DNA of 64,000 bases, taken from contig NZ_JAQZAJ010000005.1 in the NCBI RefSeq assembly GCF_028737195.1, forward strand, positions 1-64,000, given 5' to 3'. This document shows positions 4,511-22,426 of the stretch, piece by piece (the stretch's first letter is position 1; each line of letters opens with the position of its first letter). Both the position numbers and the translations under genes were made by a program. This DNA comes from Pseudovibrio exalbescens (lineage in GTDB: Bacteria > Pseudomonadota > Alphaproteobacteria > Rhizobiales > Stappiaceae). The notes below the pieces were generated by a model. The model searched no databases. It saw only the letters and a list, made by a program, of their open reading frames with translations, and had not been told where the DNA came from.

Positions 4511-4984
4511 TACCCAGCAAATGAACAGGCATGCTTCCTGCATTAGCGCCAGAAAGTTCATAGGGCAGTGATCAGAGGGACCCAAAAGACCCCAGAAGCC
4601 CAAGAAAAAACATCGGCGCTACGGAAAAAAAGCAGGGCGCGCCCCGCACAGCCAGCAGAGAGCGGCTTGGCCTTTGCAAAAGGCAAATGGCGCCCAACAG
4701 CCCGCAGAGGCTTTGATAAAAGAGAACAATTTGCCCTGAACGGCGGCAACGGCAACAGGCGCTGTGTGCGCCACAGGTGAACCCAGGTACTTCCGGGCAC
4801 CGGCTCCATGGCAGGCACTTGGGATGTTTCGCGCGCATTGTTGCATCTTGCAAACATCCCCACGAGGCGTGCCTGACAAGGGAGCGTGACAGGAAACACG
4901 GTGAATAGAGATGGGCGAAGGCTTTCTCCCGACAAACAAGTAAACCCAAACAAAACCTTAGAGTACAGTTTCGAGAGTAACAGA

Positions 4985-7900: not shown

Positions 7901-10900
7901 GCAGGCACCGCGGTAAAGCTGGGTATCTCAGCAGCGATTACGGACCGCGACGCATCTGAAGGTACGGCGGACACGCCGGATACGGTGACCATAACCTTTG
8001 ATCGCTTGCCGGAAGGCACCACCGCAAACGGCGGCGCGCTGGATGTGGCTGGTCTGACGTGGACCGGCTCCGTGAACGAAGCCAACGCGCTGACCCTGAC
8101 GTTTCCGGAACACTTTGCAAGCACACACCACTGGGAGGCGACCGGCGAGAACCTGATCGTCAACGGTTCTTTTGAGGCAGACAGTCTGGATGGACAAGTT
8201 TGGAAGGCGTTCAGCGCTGAGCAGAACCTGACGGGCTGGTCGGGTGGCGATATGGAGCTACAAAAGACCAGCTGGATCGGTACGGCCAGCGACGGCGAGC
8301 AATGGCTGGAGCTGGATGCAGAACGGGGTCTGGACAGCATCTCGCAGGAAGTGCAGACCGAAGAAGGCCAAGTCTACCTTCTGAGCTTTGACGTTTCCGC
8401 CAAGTTCCTCTGGACCAGCACTTTCGATGTGAGCTGGAACGATACGGTGATTTCAACGGTGGTGCCGGAAGGGCGCGACTGGGTGACAATCACCTTGCAA
8501 GTGGAAGGCACCGGCGGCCTGGATCGGCTGACGTTCTCGGAACTGGACACCCAGAACGATGCCCTCGGGGCGCTGTTGGACAACGTGCGGCTTACCAAGG
8601 CAGAGTTGATTGAAGATGGGCCGATCCGCTACACCACCACGGTAACGACCCCGGAAGGGCAAATGACAGCGGACGCAACGCTGACGGTGGAAGCGACCCA
8701 GGACATTTCCGTGGTGACAGAGGACGTGCGGCTTTCGGAGAGCGATGAGGCAATCCGCTTCACGCTTTCGGACCACGCGCGGGTTGCGGTGCTGGACAGC
8801 GACCTTTCCGAGAACATTACGCGGGTAGATGTGGAGCTTCACGGCCTGCCCGCAGGTTCGGTGCCCAGCGCCGGAGAGATTTCTGCTGAGGGTGTCTTCA
8901 CATTCTCAGGGAGCCTTCACGACTATTTGGCCCTTGAGTTCACCCTACCCAAGGACTTTTCGACGGAAAATCCGGCAACACAAATTACGGGTAGCATCTG
9001 GGCCCAGTCCAATGAAGGGTCAAGCGCAACCCAGCCCATCAGCATTTTTGTGAGTGCGGAGGCAGACCTTGCCTTCGACTATACGCAGGCCATGGACACC
9101 TCTGGCGAGGATGCGCAAGTGATGCTTGCGGAAACAGACAGTGGCGGCGACGCGGTTTTGGTGACGCTTGCCGATTACTTTTCTGCCGCAGCAACAGATG
9201 CGGATGGCTCTGAAGCGCTCACCACGCTGACGCTGAATCTCACCGGTTTGCCTCACGGAACGCAGTTCTCCACCGACGGCGGGGCCACGTTTATGGAAGG
9301 TGTGGTTTCGGACGGCGCGGTGAATTACACAGGACCAGCAGCGACCCTTGCGGGTCTGGTATTGGCTCTGCCGCCGATTTCACCGCAAAGCGATGAGCTA
9401 TCCGTCTTTGGTGATTTGACCATGCGCACGGATGAGGGCGGCGAGAAAACGCTGGCCTTCAAGATCGGCAATGATCGGATCATGGAGGACGCAACCGGAA
9501 CAGAAGACGGAGATGGTCAGGGCGTTACCATTGACGTTGGCTTTTCGGCAAGTGCAGTACACCTTGGCCAATTGGGCGCGGACTGGAACGCGGAGGATGC
9601 GGTCACCATTACCTTTGACCGCTTGCCCGATGGCACCACCGCCAATGGCGGAACACTGGACCTTGGCGCGCTCACATGGACCGGCACCGTGAACGAGGCC
9701 AACGCCCTCGCCCTCACCTTCCCTGAAGACTATTCCACCACCAACCGGGGCGATATCTCCGGTGAGAACCTGATATTCAACGGCTCGTTCGAAACTGTTG
9801 ATCTGGGCGGCAAGGTGTGGGGCTCCTTCGTGGATGGTGTTGGCGTAGCCGGCTGGAGCGGTGGCCGAATTGAGATCCAGAACACCGGGGTTGGCATCAA
9901 CGCGACCGACGGCAACCAGTTCATGGAGCTGGATGCGGAACGGGAGGTGGACACGGTCTATCAGGACATTCAAACCGAGGCCGGTGGCACTTATCAGCTT
10001 ACCTTTGATGTGGCAACGCGGGTGTGGGAATCCAGCGCCTTCGATGTGACGTGGAACGGCGAGACCATTGCCTCTGTGAACCCGCAATGGGGCAAGGGCT
10101 GGTCAACAATCAGCTTGCAGGTGGAAGGCACCGGCGGGCTGGACCGGTTGGCGTTTACAGAACATGCAGCGCTGAACAACGCCTTTGGCGCACTGATCGA
10201 CAACGTGGAGCTTTATCGAACCGGGTTGGTCGAGAGCAAGCCCATCGCCCTTTCGACGGTGATTGAAGGGGCAGAAGGCCAGCTGGCCTTCGAAACATCG
10301 CTCTCGATTGAGCCGACCGTTGACATCAACATCGAGACCCGTGATTTCCACCTGACGGAAACGGACAGCGCGATCACCGTGAACCTTGCCGACAACATCG
10401 CCGTGATTGCAACGGACGCGGACGGCTCGGAACTGATCGAGAGCATCACCCTTGTGATGGAAGGCCTGCCGTCTGGTGCCGCGGTAAACATTGGCGAGAT
10501 CGATGGCAGCGGCACTTTCCGCTTTACAGGTTCGCCAAGCGCGTTCGACACCATCGTGCTGACGCTCCCGGCTGACTATGCCACACAGTCGGACAAGGGG
10601 CCGCTGGTGGGTGAAGTCACCGCAACTTCCAACGAGGGCATCAGCACCGCAACGCCGTTCAAGCTGCGTGTTGACGTGGAAGGCGATGTTTCTCTTGGGT
10701 ATGCGCAAGCGATGGAGACCTCAGGCGAGGTGGCGACCATTGCCCTTACAGAGACGGATCGCACCGGCGCGGGCCTTGAAATCAAGCTCGACGATTACTT
10801 CGACGGAGCGGCGACGGATCTTGATGGCTCGGAGAGCATTGAAACGATTGCGCTGGAGATGTCAGGGCTGCCGCAGAGCACCCAGATCTCCACCAATGGA

Positions 10901-13900
10901 GGCCAGTCTTTCGAGGCTGCGCCACTGACGGATGGCAAGCTCACTTACCTTGGCAACCACGCGTCCTTGAGCGAAGTGATCGTGAAGCTGCCTGCAGACT
11001 ATTCCACCACCAACCCGGGTAGCGTGATCGACGGCCAGCTGACCATAACCACTGACGAAAACGGCATCGCCTCACTGCCGTTTGCTGTTACCGTGGCGCA
11101 TGAGGTGGATATTGACCTTTCAGCACGAAACGTGACGGCATACGAGGACGCAAGTAGTGAAGGTGTTCTGGTTGACCTGAAGCTTTCGGCCAACATTACT
11201 GACCGTGACGGCTCGGAAGGGACGAACACCACTCCGGACACGGTAACCATCGCTTTTAATGGCCTGCCGGAAGGCACCACCGCCGACAGAGGTACACTGG
11301 ACATCGAGACGGGCATCTGGACCGGCAGCGCGAAGCAGGCAAGTGACTTGCGCTTGAGGTTCCCGAAGGACCACAGCACGACAAGTGCGCCTGAGGGCCA
11401 GCCAGAGACACCCGTCACCTATGACGTGACGGTGGTGACCAGCGAGGGCACCAAAACCGCCAGTGGCCGTGTGACCATCCGCGCGCGCGAGGACATATCC
11501 TTGACGGCGCAGGATGAAACAGTGAGCGAAGACACCTTTAGCGCCATCCCTTTGAACCTCTCCGTCTCCGTTTCGGACAGCGATGGGTCTGAGGTACTGA
11601 ACGAACCCGTCAGCATCCAGTTTTCCGGCTTGCCGCAAGGGGCCACGTTCAATGGCGGCCGCTACGATGCTCAGACTGGCCTGTGGCAAGGGACGGAAGC
11701 TGAACTGGAAGCTCTGGTGCTCGCTGGTGTACCGCAGCATTTTTCCGGAAAGGTCACCGGCACCTTGTCCGCCAACACCAACGAGGGCAGCGACACCACT
11801 GCCTTTACCGTGCGCGTGTTGCCGGTTGCCGAGCCAGAAATCGCGCTATCGGTTGTGGCGCACAGCTCCAGCGGCGATACCCAGATCGTCAAGGAAGGTG
11901 CTCCGTTTACGGTGCACATTGAAGCAAAGACCGCCGATACGGATGGCTCAGAAAGCCTCACAACCATCGTGCTGCAAAATGTGCCCGATGGCTGGCCAAC
12001 CCTTTCCGGCGCAAATGCTGTAGACCTTTCGACCTTCACCACAGGCGCCGACGACATTCAGTCCGCAAGCTACAATGGGTCGACAGGTGCCCTGACCATT
12101 GCCCTGAAGGCGGGCGTTACCAACTGGGTCGGTGATCTGATCCTGACGCCAGACAGTGGACAGAGCCTCGACATCGCCTCGCTTACAGGCGGCGAACTGA
12201 CCGCCACCGTAACCGCGGTGGATGTGGCCAGCGGCCTGCCCTCCTCTACCGCAACTGTCAGTGATGCCGTTGATGTTGACGTGGATGCGGTGGCGGGTGA
12301 TCCGACGCTTACTGCGCAGGATGAGGTTCATAGTGAAGCATTGGAGGGCGCAGGAAGCTCAAAGTTGCGGATCACCAGCCTCAGCCTGTCGGACACGGAT
12401 GGCTCTGAGCGCTATGGTCCGCTGATCCTGACCATTGCCACGGGTGAGAGTGGCAGCGATGAGTTGTCGGTTGCAAACGATGTGACCCTGTTCTCCTCCA
12501 AGTCTGCTGAGCACGGCACCATTACCCGTGGCCTCGCGGAACAGGGCAAGGCCGTTTATGTGGTAAGCCAGCCGGAGGGCGTGAGCAACGCAGACTATGA
12601 AGCGTTCGTGAAGAACCTCGGCATCACCTACCCTGAGCATCATAGCGGTGTGTTTGAGGTGACCGGTGTGCTTGAAGTCTTTGAGACGGTTCAAGCTAGC
12701 GACAACGAATATGACACCTCAGACAACACGGTGACCATCACCTTTGAAACCGAGATCACCGTGAACCCGGTTGCTCAGGCGAACCTGACCGTCACTCTGA
12801 CCCCATCCGATGATGGCTTTGACACAACACCCCATAACGACCCGAACACGCCGGTTTCTGTGAGCGTTGGCGAAGACGTGCCAACCGTTGAAATTTACGA
12901 GGACCGCTCGATCAGCTTGGGTCTTGAAGCCTCAACGCCGGACCTTGATGGCTCCGAAGAGCTGACGAGCCTTGTGGTGAACAATCTGCCGAACCTTTGG
13001 TTTGCCTATGATGCAGAAGGGACTGTCGACCCAAGCTTGTTTGGTGCAGAAGCCAGCAAGATTTCCAGCGCGGTTTATGATGCGCAGACGGGCCAGCTAA
13101 CCGTGACGTTCACCCCGGAAACAAAGAGTTTCGAGGGAAGCTTGCTTCTGACCCCGATTGCCCACGATGACCGGGATGTGGATGCAAGCGACAGCTTGCC
13201 AGGCCAAGACTCCTCCGGCTTCTTTGGCGACATAACCGTCGATCTGAATGTGACCGATGCGCGGGACATGCAGAATGCAACGGAAGCCACCACAACCGTT
13301 TCAGTTGGCGTTGATATTGACGTTGAAGCGGTTAATGACCTTTCCACCCTGCCTGATGCGTTTGTGGTGAGCGAAGCCACAGTGGATGCCGCAGGCGGTT
13401 GGGTGGACGTGCCGCTGTTCCCGACCAACCCGGATAGTGAGGGCAGTGAAACCATAGAAACCCTTGGGATCTATGGCATACCCAAGGGCGTGGTGGTGTT
13501 TTATCGCACCGAAGACGGTGAGTTGACGCCCGCAAAATTGATGGGTGTGGAGCCGAAGACCGGCATGACCAACTGGGCGCTTGAAAACGGCCAGTGGGAG
13601 AGCGCCGTGCTGCGCGGAATTCCGCAGCACTTCTCCGGCGTTTTGACGGCCAATGCCGAAACAGGAGAAGTGGAGCGCAGTGTTGATGGCACGACCACGA
13701 TTACGGCCCGCGTTTTAACGCGCGAACTCAACGATAGGGAAACCGGGCAAACTGATACCGGTGAGCTGGTCATTCGCATTTCGCCCTCCATTGACGGCGG
13801 CAACCCGAATGAGACCCATCACCTCTTGGAGGATGTGGCGTATAACCCGTCGATTGACGGGAACCTGATCGACATACGGGATGGCTCGCCGGAAGAGTTG

Positions 13901-16900
13901 ACAGGCGATGTGATCCTGACACTCGGCGAGGGTCTTCCCAACACAGTTGGACAGCAGGCACGGTTCTTCCTTGGCGACCCGGAAGCGGGTGGTATCGAGA
14001 TTTTCGCTGATGGCAACGGGCAGTTGACTGTGGACTCTGCCGTGGTTGGCACCCTTCACATCCTGTCTCCCCGTGACAGCAACGAGGACTACACACTGGG
14101 CATTCAATATCAGGTGCGCGAAGCGACCGATCCCGACGGCCCGGTGAAGACGGAAACCGGCACCTTGACCATGAAGGTGAGCGGTGTTGCGGATACACCA
14201 ACGGTGATTGTGCCGGATGCGGCCTATATCGGTACGGACGCGCAAGCCTTCACCCTGGACACCGTTGTGAATGGTGAAGATGGCGCGGCAGTGCGCCTTG
14301 GCGGCCTGATGACCGAAATGATGCCCGATGGCATCAACTACGATGGGTCGGAGAACCTTTACTTCATCATTTCCGGTGATGCGCTTTCTACCATGGCAAC
14401 ACGCACGGGAAGCATAACGGCCGCGCCATCCGTTTCCTTTGCGAACGGTGTGGACACGGGCGCTGGTGCCGTGATCGTGTCCGCCGCCGACATTGGCAAC
14501 CTGAAGTTCATTCCGGTGAACGTGTCTGAGACAACGGATTACCAGTTCACCCTTTCTGCCATTGTGGTGGAGAACGATGAGCGCATTCCAACGGGCACCA
14601 ATGTGGCAGACGCAGCGGCCCTGCAAGGCGTTGCCATTGCTCAGGCGGACTTTTATGTGCGCGTGGAAGAGAAAACCCCGCAAGGTGAAGGCGGCTCACC
14701 GCCGGAAATCACCCTTCCCGAGCCGCCGGACGTAACCATCTCTCCCCTTGTTGGCGTGGAAGATCAGGAAGCCTCCTTTACCATTACGCTGAACAACTAT
14801 GACGGGGAGTTTGCCAAGATCCCGCAGCAGGGTTCCATTGAGATCACGGGAGTGCCGACGGGATCGGTGCTGCGCGCAGAGCCAGCGGATGCGCTTTCCT
14901 ATAACCCGGTGACAGGTTCCTATTTCCTGAACCATGCGGTGGCGGATGCGCAGACCACCTACTTCATCACCTTCCCGAAGCACATGTCGAGCGCTGACAC
15001 ACCGGTTGATGGGCTGGACCAGCTCACAGTGACCTCCATGTCCATGGATGTGCGCTACGGGCTGGCAGAAGTGGTGGAACAGGTGACAACCGTTTACGTG
15101 GACCCGGTTGCCGATGCGCCGCGTGTGCGGGTTACCAGCCCCGGCGGCGGCGAAGACACCGCCATTCCGGTGTTCATCAATGTGGGCTTGGTGGACCCGG
15201 GCGAAACGCTGGCAGACACCATGCTGCTGTCTCTTTCTGCAAGCCAAGGTGTGTTGGCGGATGCGAGCGGCGAAGTGCTTGCGCCCATCTCTCAAGCTGG
15301 CGGAACTCTCACCTACGAGATCTCAAGTTCCGTTACCAGCCTGAAGCTGATCCCAACCCAGCATCTTCACGGGGACATCCCGATCAAGGTGACCGTCAGC
15401 TCAACGGAGCCCAATGGCTCCAGCGCGAGCACCACAAGCACCGTGACGGTGCCCGTGGAAGCCATTGCGGATGTGGGCCAGATTTCATTTGACCCCGGCC
15501 TGGAACAAGGCTCCGACAGCGGCGAAGAGCTGCCCGTGGTAACCGCGCTTGAAGACATGACGGCGCTCCTTGAAAGCGTGATTGAAACGGCAACGCCAGA
15601 CACGGATGGATCGGAGATTTACACCATCACGCTCTCTGGCCTCCCCGATTTCATGAGCGTGAATGTGGGGGCGGACAATGGGCTTGATAGTGAAGGCTTG
15701 CGCAGCTTCACAATGTCGCCTGCCGAATATTCCCGACTGGAGATTGGGCTGAAGGACGCCAACGCCCGTCTGGATGGCGTTGTGTTGCCCGAACAGGTGC
15801 GGTTGACGCTGGAGGTAAACACGCTGGAGCTTTCCAACGGCGACACCAATGCAGGGACTGCGGACTTCCTGTTCAAGGTGACCCCGGATGCGGATGCGCC
15901 GACCCTTACTGTTGAAGATGCCGCCGGCCTTGAAGACACGGCGGTGGCACTGAACATTCTAGCCGAGGTGACCGACCCCGCCGAGGTGATCTCGCACTAC
16001 ACCATCTCTGGTGTGCCAGATGGCGCGCAGATCCTTGTTGATGGCACTGCGGTGGCCACAGGACCGGACACCGCAGAGATTGCGGCTGATGACATTGGTG
16101 CGGTGAGCTTCTTGCCGGCCAAAGACAGCGCGGCACCTGTCACGCTGACTGTCGTTGCGGTCTCTTCCGAGCCGACCGTTGCCGATCAGAGCGCGGACAA
16201 TGCAACGGAAAGTTCTGAGGCCCAAAAACTGGCCATCACCATCACACCGCAAGCGGATGTGAGCGTTCATGTTGAAACTCAGGATACCGCCCAAACCGGC
16301 GAAGTGCTTCCGGTGACGCTGAACCTCAGCGCAACCATTACAGACATGGTGGGGCCATCCACCGAGACACTGGAGGAGGTGAGCCTCACCTTTGCCAACC
16401 TGCCCAAGGGGACGACCTTTAACGCGGGAACGCTCTCACCGGATGGTCGCAGTGTCACCATCGCACGCAGTGCCTATGGCAGCGAGGCCGCGTTTGTAGC
16501 AACGCTTGCGGGCCTTGTGGCCATGTTGCCTGCCGACTTCGACGGTGTACTTTCGGGCACGGCCACGGCCAAGACAACCGAGGGCACGGGTGATGGCACT
16601 GCGTTCTCCGTCAATGTGAATGCCCAGCCCGAGGCAACGGCACCTCTGACCCTGAACAAGGAAGGCGCAGCTCAGTTTACTTTGACTGAGGCTGAGCTGC
16701 TTACCAACATTGCGGACGCGGATTCCACGCAGCTCTCCGTTCTGGAGGTGGGGACGGAAGATGCGCAGGCGCAAGTGACAACCGGTGCCACACCCGGAAC
16801 TTGGCTTGTAACCGTGGCCGATGGTTATGAGGGTTCCCTCACCCTCTCCTACACTGTGAGCGATGGGGAAGCGCAGCCTGCGACCTTGCAGACCACAGCC

Positions 16901-17560
16901 TTGGTAAGCGTTGACAATGAGAACGAGCTGACCCTGACCCAAACCGGAGAAACGGTTGAACTCGCAAGCGGCGAGACGGCCCAACTCATGGGTGATGTGA
17001 CCGGCACCTCAGACACCCACGATGTGGCGTTGGGCAGCGATGCAAATGAGGCTGTGGTGTTCACAGATGCCCGCTCCTACGCCGACGTTGAGGGCTTTTT
17101 CATGATGGGCGGCCATGACATCGTGGATCTGACCCTTTCCTACAAGGGATACACTGTGGACCTGGGCACAGGCAATGACTTTGCCATTGGCTCGGAAGGC
17201 GCTGATGTTTTGATGGGAGGAAGCGGCAATGATCGACTAGACGGTGGGCTTGGCGCGGATACCCTGTTCGGCGGTGAAGGCGCGGACACCTTCGTGATTT
17301 CAAGCTTGAGCGCGGCCGACATGATTGCCGACTATTCAGGCGCAGAAGGCGATGTGGTGGACCTGACCGGCTTGTTTGAAGTGGCAACGGACGTGCAGGA
17401 CTATGTCAACTACAACAGCCTGACCGGCGAGCTGAAGGTGGATGCGGACGGAGCGGAGAACGGCCAGAACTTCCAGCTTGCGGCAACGCTTGACGCCATC
17501 CCCACCAACCTGACTGTTCAGGTGGACGATGGCACAGACAGCGGGACGGTGACGATCTAA
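4985..17560 (+). CDS. Giant secreted RTX adhesin with Ig/cadherin-like super-repeats
   Basis: Predicted 4191-residue secreted or surface adhesin. ATG 4985 (MADNNEQLN) is preferred; the frame also opens at GTG 4886. There is no Sec signal peptide. Most of the length is Ig/cadherin-like modules of roughly 90-130 residues carrying a DxDGSE signature. A super-repeat of about 540 residues begins near residues 271, 813, 1359 and 1899. The first three copies contain an inserted module of about 150 residues starting with NGSFE and rich in Trp and Gly (near residues 509-660, 1055-1207 and 1594-1747), resembling DUF642/carbohydrate-binding folds. The C-terminus has RTX nonapeptides (GSGNDRLDGG, GLGADTLFGG; near 4060-4103) and a short tail, as in type I secretion substrates. 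No HlyB/HlyD/TolC homologue lies nearby. The role in attachment is inferred from architecture. Confidence 0.9.
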   Translation: MADNNEQLNATEQDRDNKSTQGSVDNAGSAYTNSAVTGILESEQGVKTIGIGPLVDFDYYRSITEQGGEAHESSLGDRPSAGQIIIEFGYLPPYSAVNLGSLNENGIWMGTLEEAAALELQLPSDFTGFVVGSVPLTHEGDVSRGVFHMEVGNPSTGTLAASAGQGAGADGAATVSMAEALGLVGEQLTDLENAESVSIRLQGLPGETSSSDGEQYADGSWVFSGTGAQVAGMSLTFGAGSQFGAFTFQITKAYAHGYEAFIPLEAFDPVEGDVVVGVTAAMDLSGSKPTIALQETDAGNAPLQVRLSDYLGMRVEDDDGSESLITVEVRLSGLPDGARFSTDGGTSFSSAAISGGSLSYKGPAEVFGKLVLEIPADYASAGAIKGLFSAYSDEYGRATQGFDIRVKPEADIELSAENVTAAEAASGGTTVQLAISANITDADGSEGHGDTPNTVTILFDRLPDGTSANTGTLDMGALKWTGSINEAKALALTFPENYSTTAKQVTFGDNLIINGSFEDTYVEATGWGSFVGGDGVPGWTGERVEIQNTHWGHAASNGQQWMELDAERGVDSVHQDVKTEAGTQYQLSFDVSTRFYNTSTFDVSWNGEVISTVVPEGRQWETITLTVEGTGGMDRLTFTELASQNSAFGAFIDNVKLFEAVVMEDAPIVMRTTVMTPEGAERTISTLEVTPTQDIKIEAKDAAYTEGDAPLTVMVGDLVSVKVTDADGSEVLESISVTLNGLPEGTQVSAGTLAPDGSFSWTGTQVEFADLSLTLPKDFSTANPAATLSGTASAISNEGTSSVTPFSLTVAAEGDISVGLTDAVDTSGGSPVIALSETDSGADALLVHLGDYFTAQATDTDGSESLATIAFEIFDLPEGTLLSKDGGETFSSANMLGNSLSYHGAASTLANLVLALPADYSSTNPLSDIQGVFTATTDEGGEESISFGVTVAHEADIELTSDDVSGTEDASGAGTAVKLGISAAITDRDASEGTADTPDTVTITFDRLPEGTTANGGALDVAGLTWTGSVNEANALTLTFPEHFASTHHWEATGENLIVNGSFEADSLDGQVWKAFSAEQNLTGWSGGDMELQKTSWIGTASDGEQWLELDAERGLDSISQEVQTEEGQVYLLSFDVSAKFLWTSTFDVSWNDTVISTVVPEGRDWVTITLQVEGTGGLDRLTFSELDTQNDALGALLDNVRLTKAELIEDGPIRYTTTVTTPEGQMTADATLTVEATQDISVVTEDVRLSESDEAIRFTLSDHARVAVLDSDLSENITRVDVELHGLPAGSVPSAGEISAEGVFTFSGSLHDYLALEFTLPKDFSTENPATQITGSIWAQSNEGSSATQPISIFVSAEADLAFDYTQAMDTSGEDAQVMLAETDSGGDAVLVTLADYFSAAATDADGSEALTTLTLNLTGLPHGTQFSTDGGATFMEGVVSDGAVNYTGPAATLAGLVLALPPISPQSDELSVFGDLTMRTDEGGEKTLAFKIGNDRIMEDATGTEDGDGQGVTIDVGFSASAVHLGQLGADWNAEDAVTITFDRLPDGTTANGGTLDLGALTWTGTVNEANALALTFPEDYSTTNRGDISGENLIFNGSFETVDLGGKVWGSFVDGVGVAGWSGGRIEIQNTGVGINATDGNQFMELDAEREVDTVYQDIQTEAGGTYQLTFDVATRVWESSAFDVTWNGETIASVNPQWGKGWSTISLQVEGTGGLDRLAFTEHAALNNAFGALIDNVELYRTGLVESKPIALSTVIEGAEGQLAFETSLSIEPTVDINIETRDFHLTETDSAITVNLADNIAVIATDADGSELIESITLVMEGLPSGAAVNIGEIDGSGTFRFTGSPSAFDTIVLTLPADYATQSDKGPLVGEVTATSNEGISTATPFKLRVDVEGDVSLGYAQAMETSGEVATIALTETDRTGAGLEIKLDDYFDGAATDLDGSESIETIALEMSGLPQSTQISTNGGQSFEAAPLTDGKLTYLGNHASLSEVIVKLPADYSTTNPGSVIDGQLTITTDENGIASLPFAVTVAHEVDIDLSARNVTAYEDASSEGVLVDLKLSANITDRDGSEGTNTTPDTVTIAFNGLPEGTTADRGTLDIETGIWTGSAKQASDLRLRFPKDHSTTSAPEGQPETPVTYDVTVVTSEGTKTASGRVTIRAREDISLTAQDETVSEDTFSAIPLNLSVSVSDSDGSEVLNEPVSIQFSGLPQGATFNGGRYDAQTGLWQGTEAELEALVLAGVPQHFSGKVTGTLSANTNEGSDTTAFTVRVLPVAEPEIALSVVAHSSSGDTQIVKEGAPFTVHIEAKTADTDGSESLTTIVLQNVPDGWPTLSGANAVDLSTFTTGADDIQSASYNGSTGALTIALKAGVTNWVGDLILTPDSGQSLDIASLTGGELTATVTAVDVASGLPSSTATVSDAVDVDVDAVAGDPTLTAQDEVHSEALEGAGSSKLRITSLSLSDTDGSERYGPLILTIATGESGSDELSVANDVTLFSSKSAEHGTITRGLAEQGKAVYVVSQPEGVSNADYEAFVKNLGITYPEHHSGVFEVTGVLEVFETVQASDNEYDTSDNTVTITFETEITVNPVAQANLTVTLTPSDDGFDTTPHNDPNTPVSVSVGEDVPTVEIYEDRSISLGLEASTPDLDGSEELTSLVVNNLPNLWFAYDAEGTVDPSLFGAEASKISSAVYDAQTGQLTVTFTPETKSFEGSLLLTPIAHDDRDVDASDSLPGQDSSGFFGDITVDLNVTDARDMQNATEATTTVSVGVDIDVEAVNDLSTLPDAFVVSEATVDAAGGWVDVPLFPTNPDSEGSETIETLGIYGIPKGVVVFYRTEDGELTPAKLMGVEPKTGMTNWALENGQWESAVLRGIPQHFSGVLTANAETGEVERSVDGTTTITARVLTRELNDRETGQTDTGELVIRISPSIDGGNPNETHHLLEDVAYNPSIDGNLIDIRDGSPEELTGDVILTLGEGLPNTVGQQARFFLGDPEAGGIEIFADGNGQLTVDSAVVGTLHILSPRDSNEDYTLGIQYQVREATDPDGPVKTETGTLTMKVSGVADTPTVIVPDAAYIGTDAQAFTLDTVVNGEDGAAVRLGGLMTEMMPDGINYDGSENLYFIISGDALSTMATRTGSITAAPSVSFANGVDTGAGAVIVSAADIGNLKFIPVNVSETTDYQFTLSAIVVENDERIPTGTNVADAAALQGVAIAQADFYVRVEEKTPQGEGGSPPEITLPEPPDVTISPLVGVEDQEASFTITLNNYDGEFAKIPQQGSIEITGVPTGSVLRAEPADALSYNPVTGSYFLNHAVADAQTTYFITFPKHMSSADTPVDGLDQLTVTSMSMDVRYGLAEVVEQVTTVYVDPVADAPRVRVTSPGGGEDTAIPVFINVGLVDPGETLADTMLLSLSASQGVLADASGEVLAPISQAGGTLTYEISSSVTSLKLIPTQHLHGDIPIKVTVSSTEPNGSSASTTSTVTVPVEAIADVGQISFDPGLEQGSDSGEELPVVTALEDMTALLESVIETATPDTDGSEIYTITLSGLPDFMSVNVGADNGLDSEGLRSFTMSPAEYSRLEIGLKDANARLDGVVLPEQVRLTLEVNTLELSNGDTNAGTADFLFKVTPDADAPTLTVEDAAGLEDTAVALNILAEVTDPAEVISHYTISGVPDGAQILVDGTAVATGPDTAEIAADDIGAVSFLPAKDSAAPVTLTVVAVSSEPTVADQSADNATESSEAQKLAITITPQADVSVHVETQDTAQTGEVLPVTLNLSATITDMVGPSTETLEEVSLTFANLPKGTTFNAGTLSPDGRSVTIARSAYGSEAAFVATLAGLVAMLPADFDGVLSGTATAKTTEGTGDGTAFSVNVNAQPEATAPLTLNKEGAAQFTLTEAELLTNIADADSTQLSVLEVGTEDAQAQVTTGATPGTWLVTVADGYEGSLTLSYTVSDGEAQPATLQTTALVSVDNENELTLTQTGETVELASGETAQLMGDVTGTSDTHDVALGSDANEAVVFTDARSYADVEGFFMMGGHDIVDLTLSYKGYTVDLGTGNDFAIGSEGADVLMGGSGNDRLDGGLGADTLFGGEGADTFVISSLSAADMIADYSGAEGDVVDLTGLFEVATDVQDYVNYNSLTGELKVDADGAENGQNFQLAATLDAIPTNLTVQVDDGTDSGTVTI

Positions 17561-17650: not shown

Positions 17651-18256
17651 TTAGCTGTTGGCGTCCTTTTCCAGAGCGGCAACCACATCCGGATGCTCGG
17701 CGAGCCAACTGTCATGGAGCCACTTTTCCGTGCGACGACGACCCGGGATCGTGATCCAGTAAATGTCGCGCTCAAACACCATCACCTGCTCGTTGGGGCC
17801 GACAATCACCCAGAACCAAAGCTTGTCTGAAGTTGTGGCGCGCATCTTGACCTTCATGCCTGTCAGGGTGAGGGTTTTGCGTTCACCGTTTTCCATGACC
17901 GTGATGGTTTCATCATGTGGCGCGATCCAGTGCACCTTGTGAGCCTCCAGCAGCTCTGGGGCATGCTCGCGCAGAACTTCCATCGCAACGGCGTGGGCGG
18001 TTTCTTGATCCGGCAATTTGGCAGGCTGAGCCATTTCCTTGGTCATGCGCACATAGCCAAGCAGCTTGCCGTTTTCCGAAACCACTTGAGAGATGTGTTC
18101 TCCGCCGATGCCTGAGTTTTGGCCGTCAGTCCGCTCGGCGCGGGTGATGGTGGCTGGCACGCCATCTGCGGTGATGGCGGCTTCGCCAACAGTGCGGAAG
18201 TTTTCCGGCAGTTCGCCGTTGAGGAACAAGAGGGCAAGCAGAGTTGCGGTCTTCAT
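17651..18256 (-). CDS. Unrecognised protein coupled to MFS transporter
   Basis: 201 residues starting MKTATLLALL. I do not recognise the family. The N-terminus is hydrophobic for only about 12 residues, too short for a convincing signal peptide. The rest is soluble in character, with a beta-rich C-terminal half and a basic GRRRTEKW stretch. The start at 18256 follows AGGAGAACGTTGAT, and the stop of the MFS gene (TGA 18260-18258) lies one base before it, so the two genes are almost certainly cotranscribed and translationally coupled. Through that operon it shares the operator-like motif at 19429-19446 and presumably serves the same pathway as the transporter. Its function is unknown. Confidence 0.75.
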   Translation of the reverse strand: MKTATLLALLFLNGELPENFRTVGEAAITADGVPATITRAERTDGQNSGIGGEHISQVVSENGKLLGYVRMTKEMAQPAKLPDQETAHAVAMEVLREHAPELLEAHKVHWIAPHDETITVMENGERKTLTLTGMKVKMRATTSDKLWFWVIVGPNEQVMVFERDIYWITIPGRRRTEKWLHDSWLAEHPDVVAALEKDANS

Positions 18257-18257
18257 A

Positions 18258-19421
18258 TCAACGTTCTCCTGTAGCAGGTTGCAGGGAATGGGCTTTTGCG
18301 CGTCTTGAGACGGCTAGCGTCAGGATGAGGGCGGCAATCAAGAGCACGGCGGCGGGAAGCCCGAACAGAGCCGCAGTGCCGATGCCGGACAGGCTGAGTG
18401 CCAAGGGAGGGGCGACACTCGCCCCGACGAACAGGCAGAAGGTGTAAACCGACATGGCCAGACCGCGGTTGTGATCTGCTGCTGCACCGGCGATGGTGGC
18501 AATCAAGCCGGGGACGGCCAGTGCGACACCTGCGGAAATGATGGCGGATGCGGCAATCATTGCCCCAGGAATGACGGCAACGGCCAAACCGAGCGCGGCC
18601 ACAACCATGCCAACCCGGCCGGTAACGGATGGTGTCCAGCGCTTGGACAGATAGGCAGCAAACAAGCTGAGCGCCAAGGGAGGCAAGCCCGCCAGGCGCA
18701 CTGTCTGCGCGCTGATCCCACCGTCTTGCGCCAACAATACAGTCCCGACCTGGAAGGACACGAACCCGAGCAGAACGGTGAGCGCTGCCAGCCAGCTGGT
18801 TGAAACCATGGCATTTGCAAACATTTCCGAGAGGTGGCTGTGCGGCTTGCCTGCAGCGTTTGGCTTTGCGCGCTGATCACGTGGGACGACCATGAGGAGC
18901 GCTGCGGCCATGATCACATAGAGCGGCGATAGCATGAACATGATTGAGGTGGCGGTCTCAGAGATCCCTGCACCGAAAAACTGCGAGAGCGGCGCTGCAA
19001 TCAAGAACGCAAAACTCATCAAGGAGATACCAAATGCACGCTTTTCCAACGGCAAGGCCTCGGCGATCACCGTGAGTGCTACCGGAGGAAAGCTGGCTGC
19101 AAGAAATCCTTGCACCACGCGCCCGGTGAGGAACTGGGAGATATCTGCGGACAGGCTGAGCAGGAAGGTGGCCAGCCCCACTGCCACGAGCCCTGCAACC
19201 AGAACAACACGCCGACCTAAACGGTCTGACAGAGGGCCAAACACCAGAAAGCCGCAGGCATAGGCAAAACCAAAAGCTGTACCCGCCCAACTTGCAGTTT
19301 GCGTTTCGGCCGAAAACTCGGCGGCAATGGCACTGATCATGGGAATGGTGAGATATAGTTGGCCCACCACGATGATGCCGGTCAGCATCAAAAGGGCCAT
19401 CAGTAAGTTGGAACGGGTCAT
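18258..19421 (-). CDS. MFS transporter (YnfM/AraJ-like efflux)
   Basis: 387 residues with about 12 hydrophobic helices. The loop after helix 2 holds the MFS signature (GPLSDRLGRR), as in drug:H+ antiporter-type efflux pumps. Length and helix count are normal for 12-TM MFS exporters. It is transcribed leftward with the unknown protein at 17651-18256 following one base after its stop. Its start (19421) lies only 8 bp from an 18-bp motif that also occurs in front of the merR gene and the afsA-like operon, which suggests MerR control and export of the same small molecule. The substrate cannot be read from sequence, and the export direction is inferred from the family. Confidence 0.9.
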   Translation of the reverse strand: MTRSNLLMALLMLTGIIVVGQLYLTIPMISAIAAEFSAETQTASWAGTAFGFAYACGFLVFGPLSDRLGRRVVLVAGLVAVGLATFLLSLSADISQFLTGRVVQGFLAASFPPVALTVIAEALPLEKRAFGISLMSFAFLIAAPLSQFFGAGISETATSIMFMLSPLYVIMAAALLMVVPRDQRAKPNAAGKPHSHLSEMFANAMVSTSWLAALTVLLGFVSFQVGTVLLAQDGGISAQTVRLAGLPPLALSLFAAYLSKRWTPSVTGRVGMVVAALGLAVAVIPGAMIAASAIISAGVALAVPGLIATIAGAAADHNRGLAMSVYTFCLFVGASVAPPLALSLSGIGTAALFGLPAAVLLIAALILTLAVSRRAKAHSLQPATGER

Positions 19422-19428
19422 TTCTATA

Positions 19429-19446
19429 CCTTACGTGAAGTGTAGA
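19429..19446 (-). promoter_or_regulatory. Shared MerR operator-like motif (MFS promoter)
   Basis: On the minus strand this reads TCTACACTTCACGTAAGG. It matches the sites at 22002-22019 and 19907-19924 with consensus TCTWCAYYTNACGTWWGR. A TAAAAT hexamer that could be the -10 lies immediately upstream of it, so the motif would overlap the transcription start. The partly symmetric extension CTACAC...GTATAG (19424-19445) fits a dimeric regulator. Confidence 0.6.
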
Positions 19447-19494: not shown

Positions 19495-19896
19495 TCAGCT
19501 TTTTGTAGGCTTGGCCTCTTCGTAGAGGCGCTCCATGTGGCGGATGTTCCGGATCAGATCACTGCGAAAATTGGAGAGCTCGTCAATCTGATCGTCAACC
19601 TTCTTCAACTGCGCCTGCAGCATTTCAATGACGCGCTTCTTGCCGTCCAGCATGCCGTCTTCAGACTGGAAATACAGATCAATAACATCCGCGATTTCCT
19701 CAAGAGAGAGCCCGAGACGCTTCAAGGCTGCGATCTTTTCCAAGCGGAGCAGAGCCTCTTCCTCATACATCCGGTGGCTGCCGCCTTCGCGGGTCACCGG
19801 AAAGATGAGACCACGGTTCTCGTAGTAGTGAACCGTTCTGTGGCTTACACCTGCCCGCTTGGCGAGTTCGCCGATTTTCATGAGCTGAGTCGACAT
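19495..19896 (-). CDS. MerR-family transcriptional regulator
   Basis: 133 residues. Residues 6-75 form the MerR winged helix-turn-helix (KIGELAKRAGVSHRTVHYYE, then RLEKIAALKRLGLSLEEI), and the remainder is the antiparallel dimerisation coiled coil. The protein has no cysteine at all, which excludes the metal- and thiol-sensing branches (CueR, ZntR, SoxR) and points to an organic ligand or a partner protein. It has no separate effector-binding domain. The start at 19896 follows GGGAAGG; an internal ATG five codons on is possible. The gene sits between the transporter operon and the afsA-like operon, all on one strand, and its own promoter carries the shared motif, implying autoregulation. Confidence 0.9.
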   Translation of the reverse strand: MSTQLMKIGELAKRAGVSHRTVHYYENRGLIFPVTREGGSHRMYEEEALLRLEKIAALKRLGLSLEEIADVIDLYFQSEDGMLDGKKRVIEMLQAQLKKVDDQIDELSNFRSDLIRNIRHMERLYEEAKPTKS

Positions 19897-19906
19897 GCCT
19901 TCCCTT

Positions 19907-19948
19907 TCTAACGTAAGATGAAGATATGACTCCTCAGCTCGCTGTCAA
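19907..19948 (-). promoter_or_regulatory. merR promoter with shared operator motif
   Basis: Minus-strand reading: -35 TTGACA (19948-19943), a 16-bp spacer and -10 TATCTT (19926-19921). The operator-like motif TCTTCATCTTACGTTAGA occupies 19924-19907, overlapping the -10 and the expected start point. That position favours repression of merR by its own product. The core TCTTACGTTAGA is symmetric at ten of twelve positions. Confidence 0.55.
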
Positions 19949-19970: not shown

Positions 19971-20483
19971 TCAAAGGTCCGTATCGCTGCCCTGAAGCGG
20001 TTGGTTCAGATAGGTCAAACTCATCAAGGAAACGATGACCAACGTCAGATGAACGCCTTGAATAGCCCCCTGCTTCATCCAGTAGCCAAACCAGAGCCCA
20101 CCGCACAAGAACACAAGCCACAGACCGAGGAACATCGAGAGCGCCAGGTTGACAGCGCGCAGGCAAGCTTCATCCCGCCCACCCTTCATGAACGCCCCGA
20201 TCATGTTGACAGCGGCCCACCACAACGCGGCGGCTGTGAGGACCTGCCAACAGATCACAATCCAGAGAACCGCCTGAGCAGGAACGCCGTTCCATGCTCG
20301 CCATTCCAGCCCATTCCCGAAAATGGGATCCTCAATGAGCAAGCGCATGGACAGCATGTTATCAAGGTGAATGAGGTTGGTCCCTGTGTCCGTTATGTTA
20401 TTCAAGACAGCGACGGTCATCCACGCGGCAAGGCCCGTAAGAAGAACGGCACGTGGCAGCAGTTGAGAACGCGTCCCAAACAT
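19971..20483 (-). CDS. DUF2165-type small integral membrane protein
   Basis: 170 residues with about four hydrophobic segments, resembling the DUF2165 family of predicted small integral membrane proteins of unknown function. The longer frame from 20507 is rejected because AAGGAGG lies seven bases before the ATG at 20483, and that ATG overlaps the stop of the upstream phosphatase gene by one base (TAATG). It is therefore the third gene of the afsA-like operon and is translationally coupled. An RWAxNG-like stretch (EWRAWNGVPAQA) lies in the predicted second loop. A role in handling a lipophilic product at the membrane is only a guess from context. Confidence 0.8.
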   Translation of the reverse strand: MFGTRSQLLPRAVLLTGLAAWMTVAVLNNITDTGTNLIHLDNMLSMRLLIEDPIFGNGLEWRAWNGVPAQAVLWIVICWQVLTAAALWWAAVNMIGAFMKGGRDEACLRAVNLALSMFLGLWLVFLCGGLWFGYWMKQGAIQGVHLTLVIVSLMSLTYLNQPLQGSDTDL

Positions 20484-21205
20484 TAAGCAACCTCCTTTGC
20501 AGGCCAATCGTTATCGATGAGTGTCCAATTGTGCTGACGGGCCAAGCGCTCGGACTCGGCGTTGCCGGTCAGCATCGCCCCGCTCCCAAGTAGTGAGATG
20601 AAGTCAGCATCCGATGGGTGGTCGCCAATGCCGAAGCACAACGCAGGATCCATGGCCCGCGCCGCCAGAAACTCGGTCACCGCTTCTTTTTTGCCATGAC
20701 CGATCATGCAACGCCCTGCGATTTCACCGGTGTAATGCCCCGATTCAGACAAAAAGAGCTTCGTCGCCAAAACATGCTTCACCTCAAGGTGCTCAGCAAG
20801 CGCCTCCAGGAAGTCACAGGCCGAGCCGGACACGAACACGGGTTCAACCCCCTTGTGCCGCAAGGCCTCCAATTGCGCGATCGTGTTTCGAATGAAGAAA
20901 CGCCGGTATCCGTCTTCTGCAATGCGGTCGCAAATATAGGAGCGCGCTGCAGCTGCAACTTCATTTCTGGGCAGCCCGGCAAGTCCCTTGTAAAAATGAC
21001 GATTTACTTCCGCCCGCTCACGACCCAGCGACCGAAGTTGATGCAGCTGCTCGATCAAACCGCTTGCATCAAGGTCTTTAAACCTTTCTCCAAGAACATG
21101 GAGAATGGTGAACATGGTCTTTTCAACGACAATGGTTTCGTCAACATCGAAGAAAGCATAGCCCGCAGGCTGAGCTTCAGAATTCACTGGTGCTGCCGAA
21201 GTCAT
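20483..21205 (-). CDS. HAD-superfamily (HAD-IB, SerB-like) phosphatase
   Basis: 240 residues. HAD motif I is FFDVDETI with catalytic Asp20 and Asp22, motif II is FVSGSA, motif III includes the Lys of GHGKKEAV, and motif IV is GIGDHPSDADF. The helical cap of roughly 60-110 residues between motifs I and II fits the HAD-IB group of phosphoserine-phosphatase-like enzymes. All catalytic residues are present. Its ATG overlaps the stop of the afsA-like gene (ATGA, 21205-21202), and its own stop overlaps the next start, so the trio is tightly coupled. Actinobacterial butyrolactone synthesis needs a phosphatase to remove the DHAP-derived phosphate after AfsA action. I infer that role here from position. 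Confidence 0.88.
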   Translation of the reverse strand: MTSAAPVNSEAQPAGYAFFDVDETIVVEKTMFTILHVLGERFKDLDASGLIEQLHQLRSLGRERAEVNRHFYKGLAGLPRNEVAAAARSYICDRIAEDGYRRFFIRNTIAQLEALRHKGVEPVFVSGSACDFLEALAEHLEVKHVLATKLFLSESGHYTGEIAGRCMIGHGKKEAVTEFLAARAMDPALCFGIGDHPSDADFISLLGSGAMLTGNAESERLARQHNWTLIDNDWPAKEVA

Positions 21206-21966
21206 CCTGCTTTCCTCTGAGTCAAGCCTTCTTCAACAATGGTGAGCTCAGCGTCTTCAGCCCGGCGCATGACAGATTCAACCGCCTTGCAGGCCAACTT
21301 TTCTTCCTTCGGCTTCAAGGATGCGGCTTCGAAAATAGTGTACTCAACATAGGTGCTCGCAACGCGGCCCTGCTCTTGAAACAGCTCGATGTGCGCGGAG
21401 AAGCTGGTCCGATCGCTGCGCGGCTGCTCGATGTTCGTCACCGACTGGCGGATGACGGTTGGGATCGGGAAGGCGAACTGTTCAAAGCGCGTATCCAGAC
21501 GATTGAAGACCACATAGCCCCCTTTTGGAACGCCCAGATGAGAATACTGAGTTTCGCCAACGGCGATGAACATCTGACGTGTAGCTTCAATCAGCAGCAT
21601 GCCTTGCAGATGCAAGCCTGTCAGGTGGTCAGACATGATCTCGTTGCGATCATCCATGAGCATGTCTGCTTCAAAGACGTTTTCCTCTACCTTACGCGGC
21701 ATGGAGATCAACTCGTTGACCGGGTCATGTTTGTGGCAGACAGAGCGCCCAGCCCGCAGGCCATCCTCTTCAAACACATGAACGTCTACACCGGTCGCTT
21801 GGCCCAACACCCGAATTACACGGGCATCTTCGTCGCGAACACCCTGACCAATAACAAATCCACCCTCAACACTCTTCTGAGCGAGACGCTCAATGGCGGC
21901 CTGTGCAGTGATGGCACCAGTCGCTTCCGCGAAATCTGTCAAACGATTCCCTACAATTAACTGCAT
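21202..21966 (-). CDS. AfsA-like (A-factor biosynthesis) hotdog-domain protein
   Basis: 254 residues. The middle region (about 75-210) resembles the AfsA hotdog domain: His-Asp-Pro near 80-82, MSDH at 111-114, and GMLLIEATRQ at 122-131, which closely parallels the DH...GMLLLEAARQ signature of Streptomyces AfsA/ScbA. The N-terminal 75 residues are different and I do not recognise them. Only one hotdog is clear, whereas actinobacterial AfsA has two, so it may dimerise. AfsA joins a beta-ketoacyl thioester to dihydroxyacetone phosphate, the first step to gamma-butyrolactone signals. ATG 21966 has AAGGAG upstream; the longer frame to 22005 lacks a good site. It is first in an operon with a HAD phosphatase and a DUF2165 protein, next to merR and an exporter. 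Activity is inferred. Confidence 0.75.
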   Translation of the reverse strand: MQLIVGNRLTDFAEATGAITAQAAIERLAQKSVEGGFVIGQGVRDEDARVIRVLGQATGVDVHVFEEDGLRAGRSVCHKHDPVNELISMPRKVEENVFEADMLMDDRNEIMSDHLTGLHLQGMLLIEATRQMFIAVGETQYSHLGVPKGGYVVFNRLDTRFEQFAFPIPTVIRQSVTNIEQPRSDRTSFSAHIELFQEQGRVASTYVEYTIFEAASLKPKEEKLACKAVESVMRRAEDAELTIVEEGLTQRKAG

Positions 21967-22001
21967 GTCATTCTCCTTAGGTTGGGAGGTGAAAAATACA
22001 A

Positions 22002-22019
22002 CCATACGTTAGGTGTAGA
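22002..22019 (-). promoter_or_regulatory. Shared MerR operator-like motif (afsA-like promoter)
   Basis: The minus strand reads TCTACACCTAACGTATGG, preceded directly by a -10-like CATAAT. It matches the transporter site at 14 of 18 positions, including all of TCTACAC and ACGTA. It lies 36 bp before the start codon at 21966. Confidence 0.6.
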
Positions 22020-22350: not shown

Positions 22351-22426
22351 TGGTGCCCGGAGGCGGATTCGAACCACCGACACGCGGATTTTCAATCCGC
22401 TGCTCTACCAACTGAGCTATCCGGGC
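22351..22426 (-). tRNA. tRNA-Phe (GAA)
   Basis: 76 nt including an encoded CCA. The acceptor stem is GCCCGGA/TCCGGGC, the D arm is AGCTCAGTTGGTAGAGC, and the anticodon loop TTGAAAA gives GAA. The T arm has the canonical GGTTCGAATCC. It lies alone between the afsA-like promoter and the hydrolase gene. Confidence 0.97.

Follow-up and report, generated by a model that had tools for sequence, protein, structure and literature searches.

In a 64,000-nucleotide stretch of Pseudovibrio DNA (contig NZ_JAQZAJ010000005.1, positions 1 to 64,000; the whole stretch is called the window here), six genes on the minus strand, spanning 22018-17651, encode in order an AfsA-like hotdog protein, a HAD-IB phosphatase, a small DUF2165 membrane protein, a MerR-family regulator, a transporter of the major facilitator superfamily (MFS) and a small YcdB-like protein. 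The initial annotation had picked out the first two as a coupled pair, and had suggested from them local production of a butenolide or butyrolactone-like molecule. The pairing is real and conserved, but to judge by sequence the unit is a six-gene cassette rather than a gene pair, with four further genes and three operator-like sites.

The AfsA-like protein and its HAD-IB partner

The gene for the AfsA-like protein (21202..21966, minus strand; 254 amino acids) begins with the ATG at 21966, which matches the starts of homologues; a longer in-frame ATG is present at 22005. The product has the MSDH and GMLLIEATRQ motifs by which it had been recognized, and the assignment holds on a HMMER comparison with the Pfam AfsA family: PF03756 is matched in one stretch, residues 78-207, with E 5.9e-17 and 62.4 bits (cut-off 24), and this is the sole PF03756 match at E <= 0.001 in the 4.39-Mb genome. 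Placement in FabA/FabZ or another hotdog family can be rejected, there being no Pfam match to these at E <= 0.1 (a FabA match below its cut-off, 19.7 bits as against 23, occurs in a Streptomyces relative, L071). Membership of the ScbA/BarX family is also rejected. The score with NCBIfam NF041195 is 19.4 bits against an equivalog cut-off of 200, and the tandem architecture needs two AfsA stretches, as are present in each of three ScbA/BarX controls from Streptomyces plasmids (L069, L070 and L072), whereas the window protein has one. Sequence search of Protein Data Bank chains yielded no usable relative. Of three named relatives P. exalbescens is the best by AfsA, with 77% identity.

Comparison was with a set of 36 AfsA loci, from which repeat loci of one place are left out (e.g. 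L002 and L007 beside L016, and L028 beside L018), as are L045 at a contig edge, the remote AfsA-domain loci L009/L026, L010/L027 and L066, and the later-added L069-L072. All 36 aligned proteins keep G40, Q41, G42, K79, N84, D113, H114, H119, E127, R130, Q131, P167, Q197 and E221. The domain had been described as single, which stands, and the N-terminal 75 or so residues as unfamiliar and a possible sign of a new subtype, which does not: the region, with its invariant GQG, is common to all 36 proteins, including those of Ruegeria pomeroyi and two Streptomyces plasmids, and is a trait of the subfamily and not a peculiarity of the window protein. When 10 of the 36 single-domain proteins were aligned with either half of the tandem enzymes, the one domain was seen to carry the H-K motif of the tandem first half together with the D-H, H, G-M, E-x-x-R-Q and Gln features of the second. 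A homodimer of the single-domain protein may, on this alignment, do the work of the tandem enzyme. In ScbA a Glu and an Arg of the E-x-x-R-Q motif are reportedly essential. With motifs in one domain that the tandem controls spread over two, the single-domain enzyme makes a compact structural target.

The AfsA stop and the start of the HAD gene (20483..21205, minus strand; 240 amino acids, complete) overlap by 4 nucleotides (ATGA) at the junction GGATGACT, as initially described. The protein scores 85.9 bits with Pfam HAD and 69.4 bits with the HAD-IB profile TIGR01488 (cut-off 45); with a second HAD-IB profile, TIGR01490, its 94.7 bits fall below the cut-off of 98.3. All 32 HADs of the set keep D20, D22, T24, S128, K172, D195 and D199, which correspond to motif I (DxDxT) and to the Ser, the Lys and the two Asp expected in a HAD active site. 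Profile and active-site residues together put it among the predicted HAD-IB phosphatases. Over 225 positions it shares 34% identity (110 bits) with the HAD of L069, a Streptomyces anthocyanicus plasmid operon with the order ScbA/BarX, acyl-CoA dehydrogenase family protein, HAD. That operon is probably mmfLHP-like, of the kind linked to methylenomycin furans, as its gene order suggests (the record does not carry the name), and its HAD matches all 32 HADs of the set at E <= 4.3e-19. A single-sequence search, which distant HADs may escape, found no second HAD of this kind in the window's own genome at E <= 0.01.

The gene pair is a recurrent one. At 27 of the 36 AfsA loci a HAD gene of the same strand follows no more than 38 nucleotides downstream (at L033 the two frames overlap by 52 nucleotides with the starts as chosen), and at 5 further loci it is on the same strand within 2.5 kb. 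Pairwise distances in the AfsA and HAD trees, both of them quick trees with several long branches, correlate at r = 0.924 (n=32; equalled in 0 of 2000 permutations), and at r = 0.902 (n=14) when the sensor group described below is taken out. Parallel evolution of the two proteins is supported by these sequence comparisons.

Cassette, operator-like sites and distribution

The AfsA, HAD and DUF2165 genes are coupled stop to start. The ATG of the third (19971..20483, minus strand) overlaps the HAD stop by 1 nucleotide (junction TTAATG), and its product, which has four hydrophobic stretches in a Kyte-Doolittle scan, scores 76.9 bits with PF09933 on a longer reading from 20507. The MerR gene (19495..19896, minus strand; 133 amino acids; Pfam MerR_1, 73.3 bits) follows, and then two genes that almost touch, also on the minus strand: one for the MFS transporter, a putative exporter conserved in the cassette (18258..19421; MFS_1, 143.9 bits), and one for a 201-amino-acid protein (17651..18256) whose assignment as YcdB/DUF4901-like is weak, at 16.8 bits as against a cut-off of 27 for DUF4901. 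In the window none of the six frames is interrupted.

Searching by tblastn with the six proteins revealed the same six genes at six further loci, the weakly assigned YcdB-like gene being kept in all seven cassettes and the HAD gene directly following that for AfsA in each, so that linkage in related genomes, on which the first suggestion had been staked, is borne out. The further loci are in P. exalbescens (L016, with L002 of strain DSM 16456), Salipiger mucosus (L003), Rhodobacter capsulatus SP108 (L004), the same genus as the window (L015 and L017) and another family of the class (L018, whose AfsA is 33% identical). The MerR and MFS genes are swapped in order in L015. The genes that flank the cassette in the window, for an alpha/beta hydrolase, an acetoacetate decarboxylase and a nucleotidase, had no match in the other cassette stretches, where flanks are a few kb and L017 is a 6.5-kb contig.

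Upstream of AfsA there is a common pattern, CTACA-N-YT-N-ACGTWAG, represented in the window by a 20-mer at 21999..22018 (minus strand), 52 nucleotides from the start codon. A matrix made from six AfsA-upstream sites only finds sites before the MerR and MFS genes in all six loci (in L015, before the YcdB-like gene); in the window these are at 19904..19923 and 19426..19445, again on the minus strand and 27 and 24 nucleotides from the respective start codons. An operator-like site thus precedes each of three transcription units in six of the seven cassette loci. On leave-one-out testing (the window and L016 being omitted together, and the window tested over an 18-kb stretch) all 18 sites, three per locus, rank 1-4 among 12,940-37,964 positions. 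The pattern CTWCANYTNACGTWWG, which was defined after the sites had been seen, has 3 exact matches genome-wide, all of them in the cassette, and for the window 0.07 would be expected; with up to one mismatch there are 9 genome matches, and 23 for a reversed control pattern.

MerR is the candidate binder of these sites because it is co-conserved with them. No TetR receptor of the ScbR/ArpA kind was found beside the synthase among the eight neighbouring proteins scanned, the regulator there being MerR. What MerR itself responds to is narrowed by its composition. Metal and redox MerR subfamilies have metal-binding or cluster cysteines, and there is no Cys in any of the seven orthologues (the L003 copy was read over 104 amino acids only), so a metal or iron-sulphur signal seems unlikely. 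All 18 NCBIfam matches stay below their cut-offs, the best, to a Zn-responsive family, being 74.4 bits against 143, and assignment to ZntR, CueR, SoxR or CadR is not supported.

Distribution of the cassette is patchy. With the query genome included in counts, and the genomes being samples of larger groups, PF03756 is present in 7 of the 87 family genomes, including 4 of 16 in the genus, and the window AfsA protein finds counterparts in 3 of 385 genomes of the class (E <= 1e-10). The AfsA profile (A1) picks out 2 genomes among 398 of the phylum; for the family of L018 the figure is 1 in 17, and for that of Salipiger mucosus 1 in 394. The AfsA tree places the Salipiger and Rhodobacter copies together with those of the window and P. 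exalbescens, and not outside the genus (SH-aLRT support is 96-98 for the two pairs and for the six, and 85 at the fork that decides this; the HAD tree gives the pair 98 and the fork 88). Since these copies nest in this way, horizontal transfer of the cassette is likely.

Proposed function and competing explanations

It is probable, in our estimation, that this is a self-contained, horizontally moving and MerR-controlled cassette for making and exporting a molecule of the butenolide type, the substrates being a beta-ketoacyl thioester and dihydroxyacetone phosphate (DHAP). AfsA would join the two substrates, the acyl donor probably being drawn from the cell's own fatty acid synthesis because the cassette has neither ketosynthase nor carrier protein. 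The ester would close to a butenolide phosphate, from which the co-translated HAD-IB enzyme would then remove the phosphate, and the MFS protein would export the product. By binding one type of operator before AfsA-HAD-DUF2165, before its own gene and before MFS-YcdB, MerR would keep production and export in step, the cue probably being the product or a precursor. Protein families, conservation of the cassette, the operator-like sites and the parallel evolution of AfsA and HAD support the scheme at the level of sequence; we infer the substrates, product class, order of steps, MerR as binder and its ligand, the direction of transport and whatever roles DUF2165 and the YcdB-like protein have. 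As to the molecule, the butenolide or butyrolactone-like product first suggested is still the best inference, because of the AfsA family, the single domain and the conserved HAD-IB pairing, but an unreduced butenolide, a furan or another C3-derived ring could also result.

Several points weigh against the scheme, among them the after-the-fact definition of the operator pattern. One of the seven cassettes, L018, has only a weak operator site and no good one, and the cassette has no gene for a reductase, ketosynthase or acyl carrier protein (ACP). Four of the 36 AfsA loci (L019, L023, L064 and L065) have no linked HAD of the window type, though two genes of L064 look HAD-like at scores under the Pfam cut-off, and none is listed near AfsA in L070, L071 and L072, where the PLSDB gene tables are incomplete. 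Streptomyces clavuligerus (L023) and S. violaceusniger (L071) are thus both among those without such a HAD, which bears on the generality of the pair, and the existence of such loci implies that AfsA enzymes can work without it. The literature adds two further points (papers given by PMC number are represented here by excerpts, and statements about them hold for those excerpts). AfsA domains also serve to terminate polyketide chains (PMC7756420), so that an acyl donor of other than fatty-acid origin is conceivable, and mmfP is annotated as a putative phosphatase whose precise function is still to be established in vitro (PMC6604932).

AfsA clusters in Gram-negative bacteria, alphaproteobacteria among them, are already in print (PMC7426152, PMC7756420, PMC8719888, PMC5563371), the last listing 'butyrolactone x2' among 129 clusters predicted in 21 Pseudovibrio genomes. 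One near parallel is the gamma-butyrolactone cluster of R. pomeroyi DSS-3 (L022; SPOA0341-0343 and neighbours), which, like the afsA gene within it, is needed to kill competitors (PMC7426152). Like the cassette it has an alphaproteobacterial single-domain GQG AfsA, with a HAD-IB hydrolase and an MFS protein nearby. The two AfsA proteins are, however, only 27% identical and the partners differ, being SPOA0341, SPOA0343, a tautomerase, an aldo/keto reductase (AKR) and LysR regulators in DSS-3, and DUF2165, MerR and YcdB-like proteins in the window. None of the six cassette proteins is a homologue of SPOA0341 or SPOA0343 at E <= 0.01, and in the compared protein set only L014 and Streptomyces sp. 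YIM 121038 match. Identity with the killing cluster is rejected on these grounds.

The AfsA-type enzyme and the downstream HAD phosphatase are shared with the L069 operon, which differs in its tandem AfsA, in the acyl-CoA-dehydrogenase-like enzyme between the two and in its TetR/ScbR regulators. With the A-factor and SCB butyrolactone synthases (AfsA, ScbA, BarX) the shared feature is PF03756; beyond the score and domain number already given, the cassette lacks their TetR receptor and reductase. The GblA protein of Rhodococcus contains the AfsA repeat twice; the phosphatase of its pathway is thought to be unspecific (PMC5735094). In Burkholderia the AfsA domain of the gladiofungin pathway is needed to end the polyketide as a butenolide, and DHAP-mediated release with a candidate phosphatase is proposed (PMC7756420); this is Gram-negative AfsA chemistry too, but there the domain terminates a modular polyketide synthase, of which the window cassette has none. 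The A-factor-like cluster of Pseudomonas Ps664, with AfsA, a hydrolase, an MFS transporter and no reductase, is set apart by its description, in which a P450 appears and MerR, DUF2165 and YcdB-like proteins are not named (PMC8719888). Among the matches listed from open-licence PMC papers, no title or abstract start describes the present cassette, and what appears new is AfsA chemistry in an apparently self-regulated and transferable gene set.

Whether the product would serve as a weapon or as a signal is a separate matter. That it is an exported antimicrobial, with DUF2165 or the YcdB-like protein for self-protection and MerR merely matching efflux to production, is conceivable, and we would give it some credence short of preference. 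A single exporter and exact operator matches confined to the cassette suit a self-contained weapon, and in DSS-3, where the AfsA cluster required for killing carries immunity genes, an antimicrobial is one of the options proposed (PMC7426152), its authors being undecided between that and a signal. However, DSS-3's SPOA0341, SPOA0343 and aldo/keto reductase match no cassette protein, the cassette has no recognizable immunity gene, and the AfsA products of Streptomyces are signals.

The other option, an extracellular autoinducer with MerR as its receptor and positive feedback leading to population-level switching, is one that we hold as tentatively. It gains from the presence of one operator type before the genes for synthesis, regulation and export, from the dependence of transcription of most of the DSS-3 cluster on its own afsA (PMC7426152), and from AfsA-HAD genes of another class that adjoin those for a CHASE5 sensor kinase, a periplasmic binding protein and a GGDEF-EAL regulator. 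Against it, MerR is short and without a known ligand domain, and the lack of an exact operator match outside the cassette leaves no other evident direct target for the hormone via MerR.

Membrane-lipid turnover, in which AfsA would make a ketoacyl-DHAP lipid and the HAD-IB enzyme act on substrates of the acyl-glycerol-phosphate type, with membranes remodelled in consequence, is improbable. The HAD comes close to the cut-off of TIGR01490, a subfamily often tied to lipid acyltransferases, and DUF2165 is a membrane protein; but the HAD is close to its counterpart in the MmfLHP-like operon, the HAD and AfsA trees run parallel, and patchy distribution together with a transporter hardly suits housekeeping. 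A reading of the cassette as a relic, degraded or silent, is very improbable, for though MerR and MFS are each in two out-of-frame pieces in Salipiger mucosus (L003, 10057-11677; frameshifts or draft errors), the six window frames are open and invariant residues and operator-like sites are kept.

Butyrolactone and butenolide hormones have been studied mainly in actinomycetes, and with a compact regulated gene set in marine alphaproteobacteria that can be cultured, Gram-negative use of the same chemistry becomes testable, as do the identity of the receptor and the choice between signal and weapon. The three operator-like sites amount to a ready reporter.

Other settings of AfsA and neighbouring features

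The seven cassette loci are one of several settings in which AfsA, generally with HAD, is encountered. In a second, the pair adjoins an SBP_bac_3 protein, a CHASE5-HAMP-HisKA kinase and a receiver-PAS-GGDEF-EAL protein (domains assigned by Pfam for genome G632 and partly for L019, and otherwise by tblastn similarity to proteins of G632 and G459). Among 100 genomes of one family in another class of the phylum, 26 bear AfsA and 19 of them have this arrangement (L025, 6414-12641, in G632; L029-L045; L047). The binding protein, kinase and GGDEF-EAL protein are all in the examined DNA in 15 of the 19 and a part of them in the others; for L034 there was no GGDEF-EAL gene even within 17 kb (L068). 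The alphaproteobacterial locus L019 has AfsA with the kinase, binding protein and a GGDEF-EAL-like protein and no HAD. This setting is possibly a module for butenolide-to-cyclic-di-GMP signalling; no title or abstract start among the matches listed from open-licence PMC papers describes the AfsA-HAD-CHASE5-GGDEF-EAL neighbourhood.

In the third setting, that of R. pomeroyi, homologues of SPOA0341, AfsA and SPOA0343 occur with HAD (L022, L060/L046 and L014), and in another order in Streptomyces sp. YIM 121038. A plasmid of the latter (L024, 4520-10859) has genes for KASIII, ACP, TauD, AfsA, HAD (with an 8-nucleotide overlap), SPOA0341-like and SPOA0343-like proteins and an AKR that is 50% identical to that of R. 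pomeroyi, so parts of the killing-type cluster are, by sequence, common across phyla. In the window's own family, L014 (genome G001, 5987-12871), with an AMP-ligase, SDR, ACP, SPOA0341-like protein, AfsA, SPOA0343-like protein, HAD and EamA transporter, is a relative of the DSS-3 cluster. A fourth setting, L061, has a thiolase, an SDR-like protein (by eye), TauD, YcdB-like and DUF2165 proteins, a membrane protein, a LysR-like protein (by eye), AfsA and HAD. Here DUF2165 and the YcdB-like protein evidently travel with the pair, with no MerR or MFS of the window type in the examined stretch. Candidate genes for supplying a beta-ketoacyl donor thus stand beside AfsA in relatives: KASIII and ACP in YIM 121038, AMP-ligase, SDR and ACP in L014, and thiolase in L061.

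A broader proposition is that single-domain AfsA and an MmfP-type HAD form a portable two-gene butenolide maker, wired by Gram-negative bacteria to several sensing and export modules (MerR-operator with exporter in the window, or CHASE5/SBP/GGDEF-EAL in another class of the phylum), giving hormone systems whose receptors are unlike the TetR proteins of Streptomyces. We regard it as rather unlikely. AfsA domains of a different kind also occur in the window's family, L026 (8244-9818) having a frame of more than 500 amino acids with the domain in its middle, and L010 a larger open frame, again over 500 amino acids, with a partial AfsA match.

Just upstream of the cassette is a tRNA-Phe gene (22351..22426, minus strand; found by ARAGORN, Rfam tRNA 71.7 bits). 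It is possibly an integration site. No tRNA was found in the examined stretches of the six other cassette loci. Convergent with the cassette, at window positions 4886-17560 on the plus strand, is a gene for a giant repetitive protein of 4224 amino acids that has two DUF642 stretches, a cadherin-like domain and RTX calcium-binding repeats.

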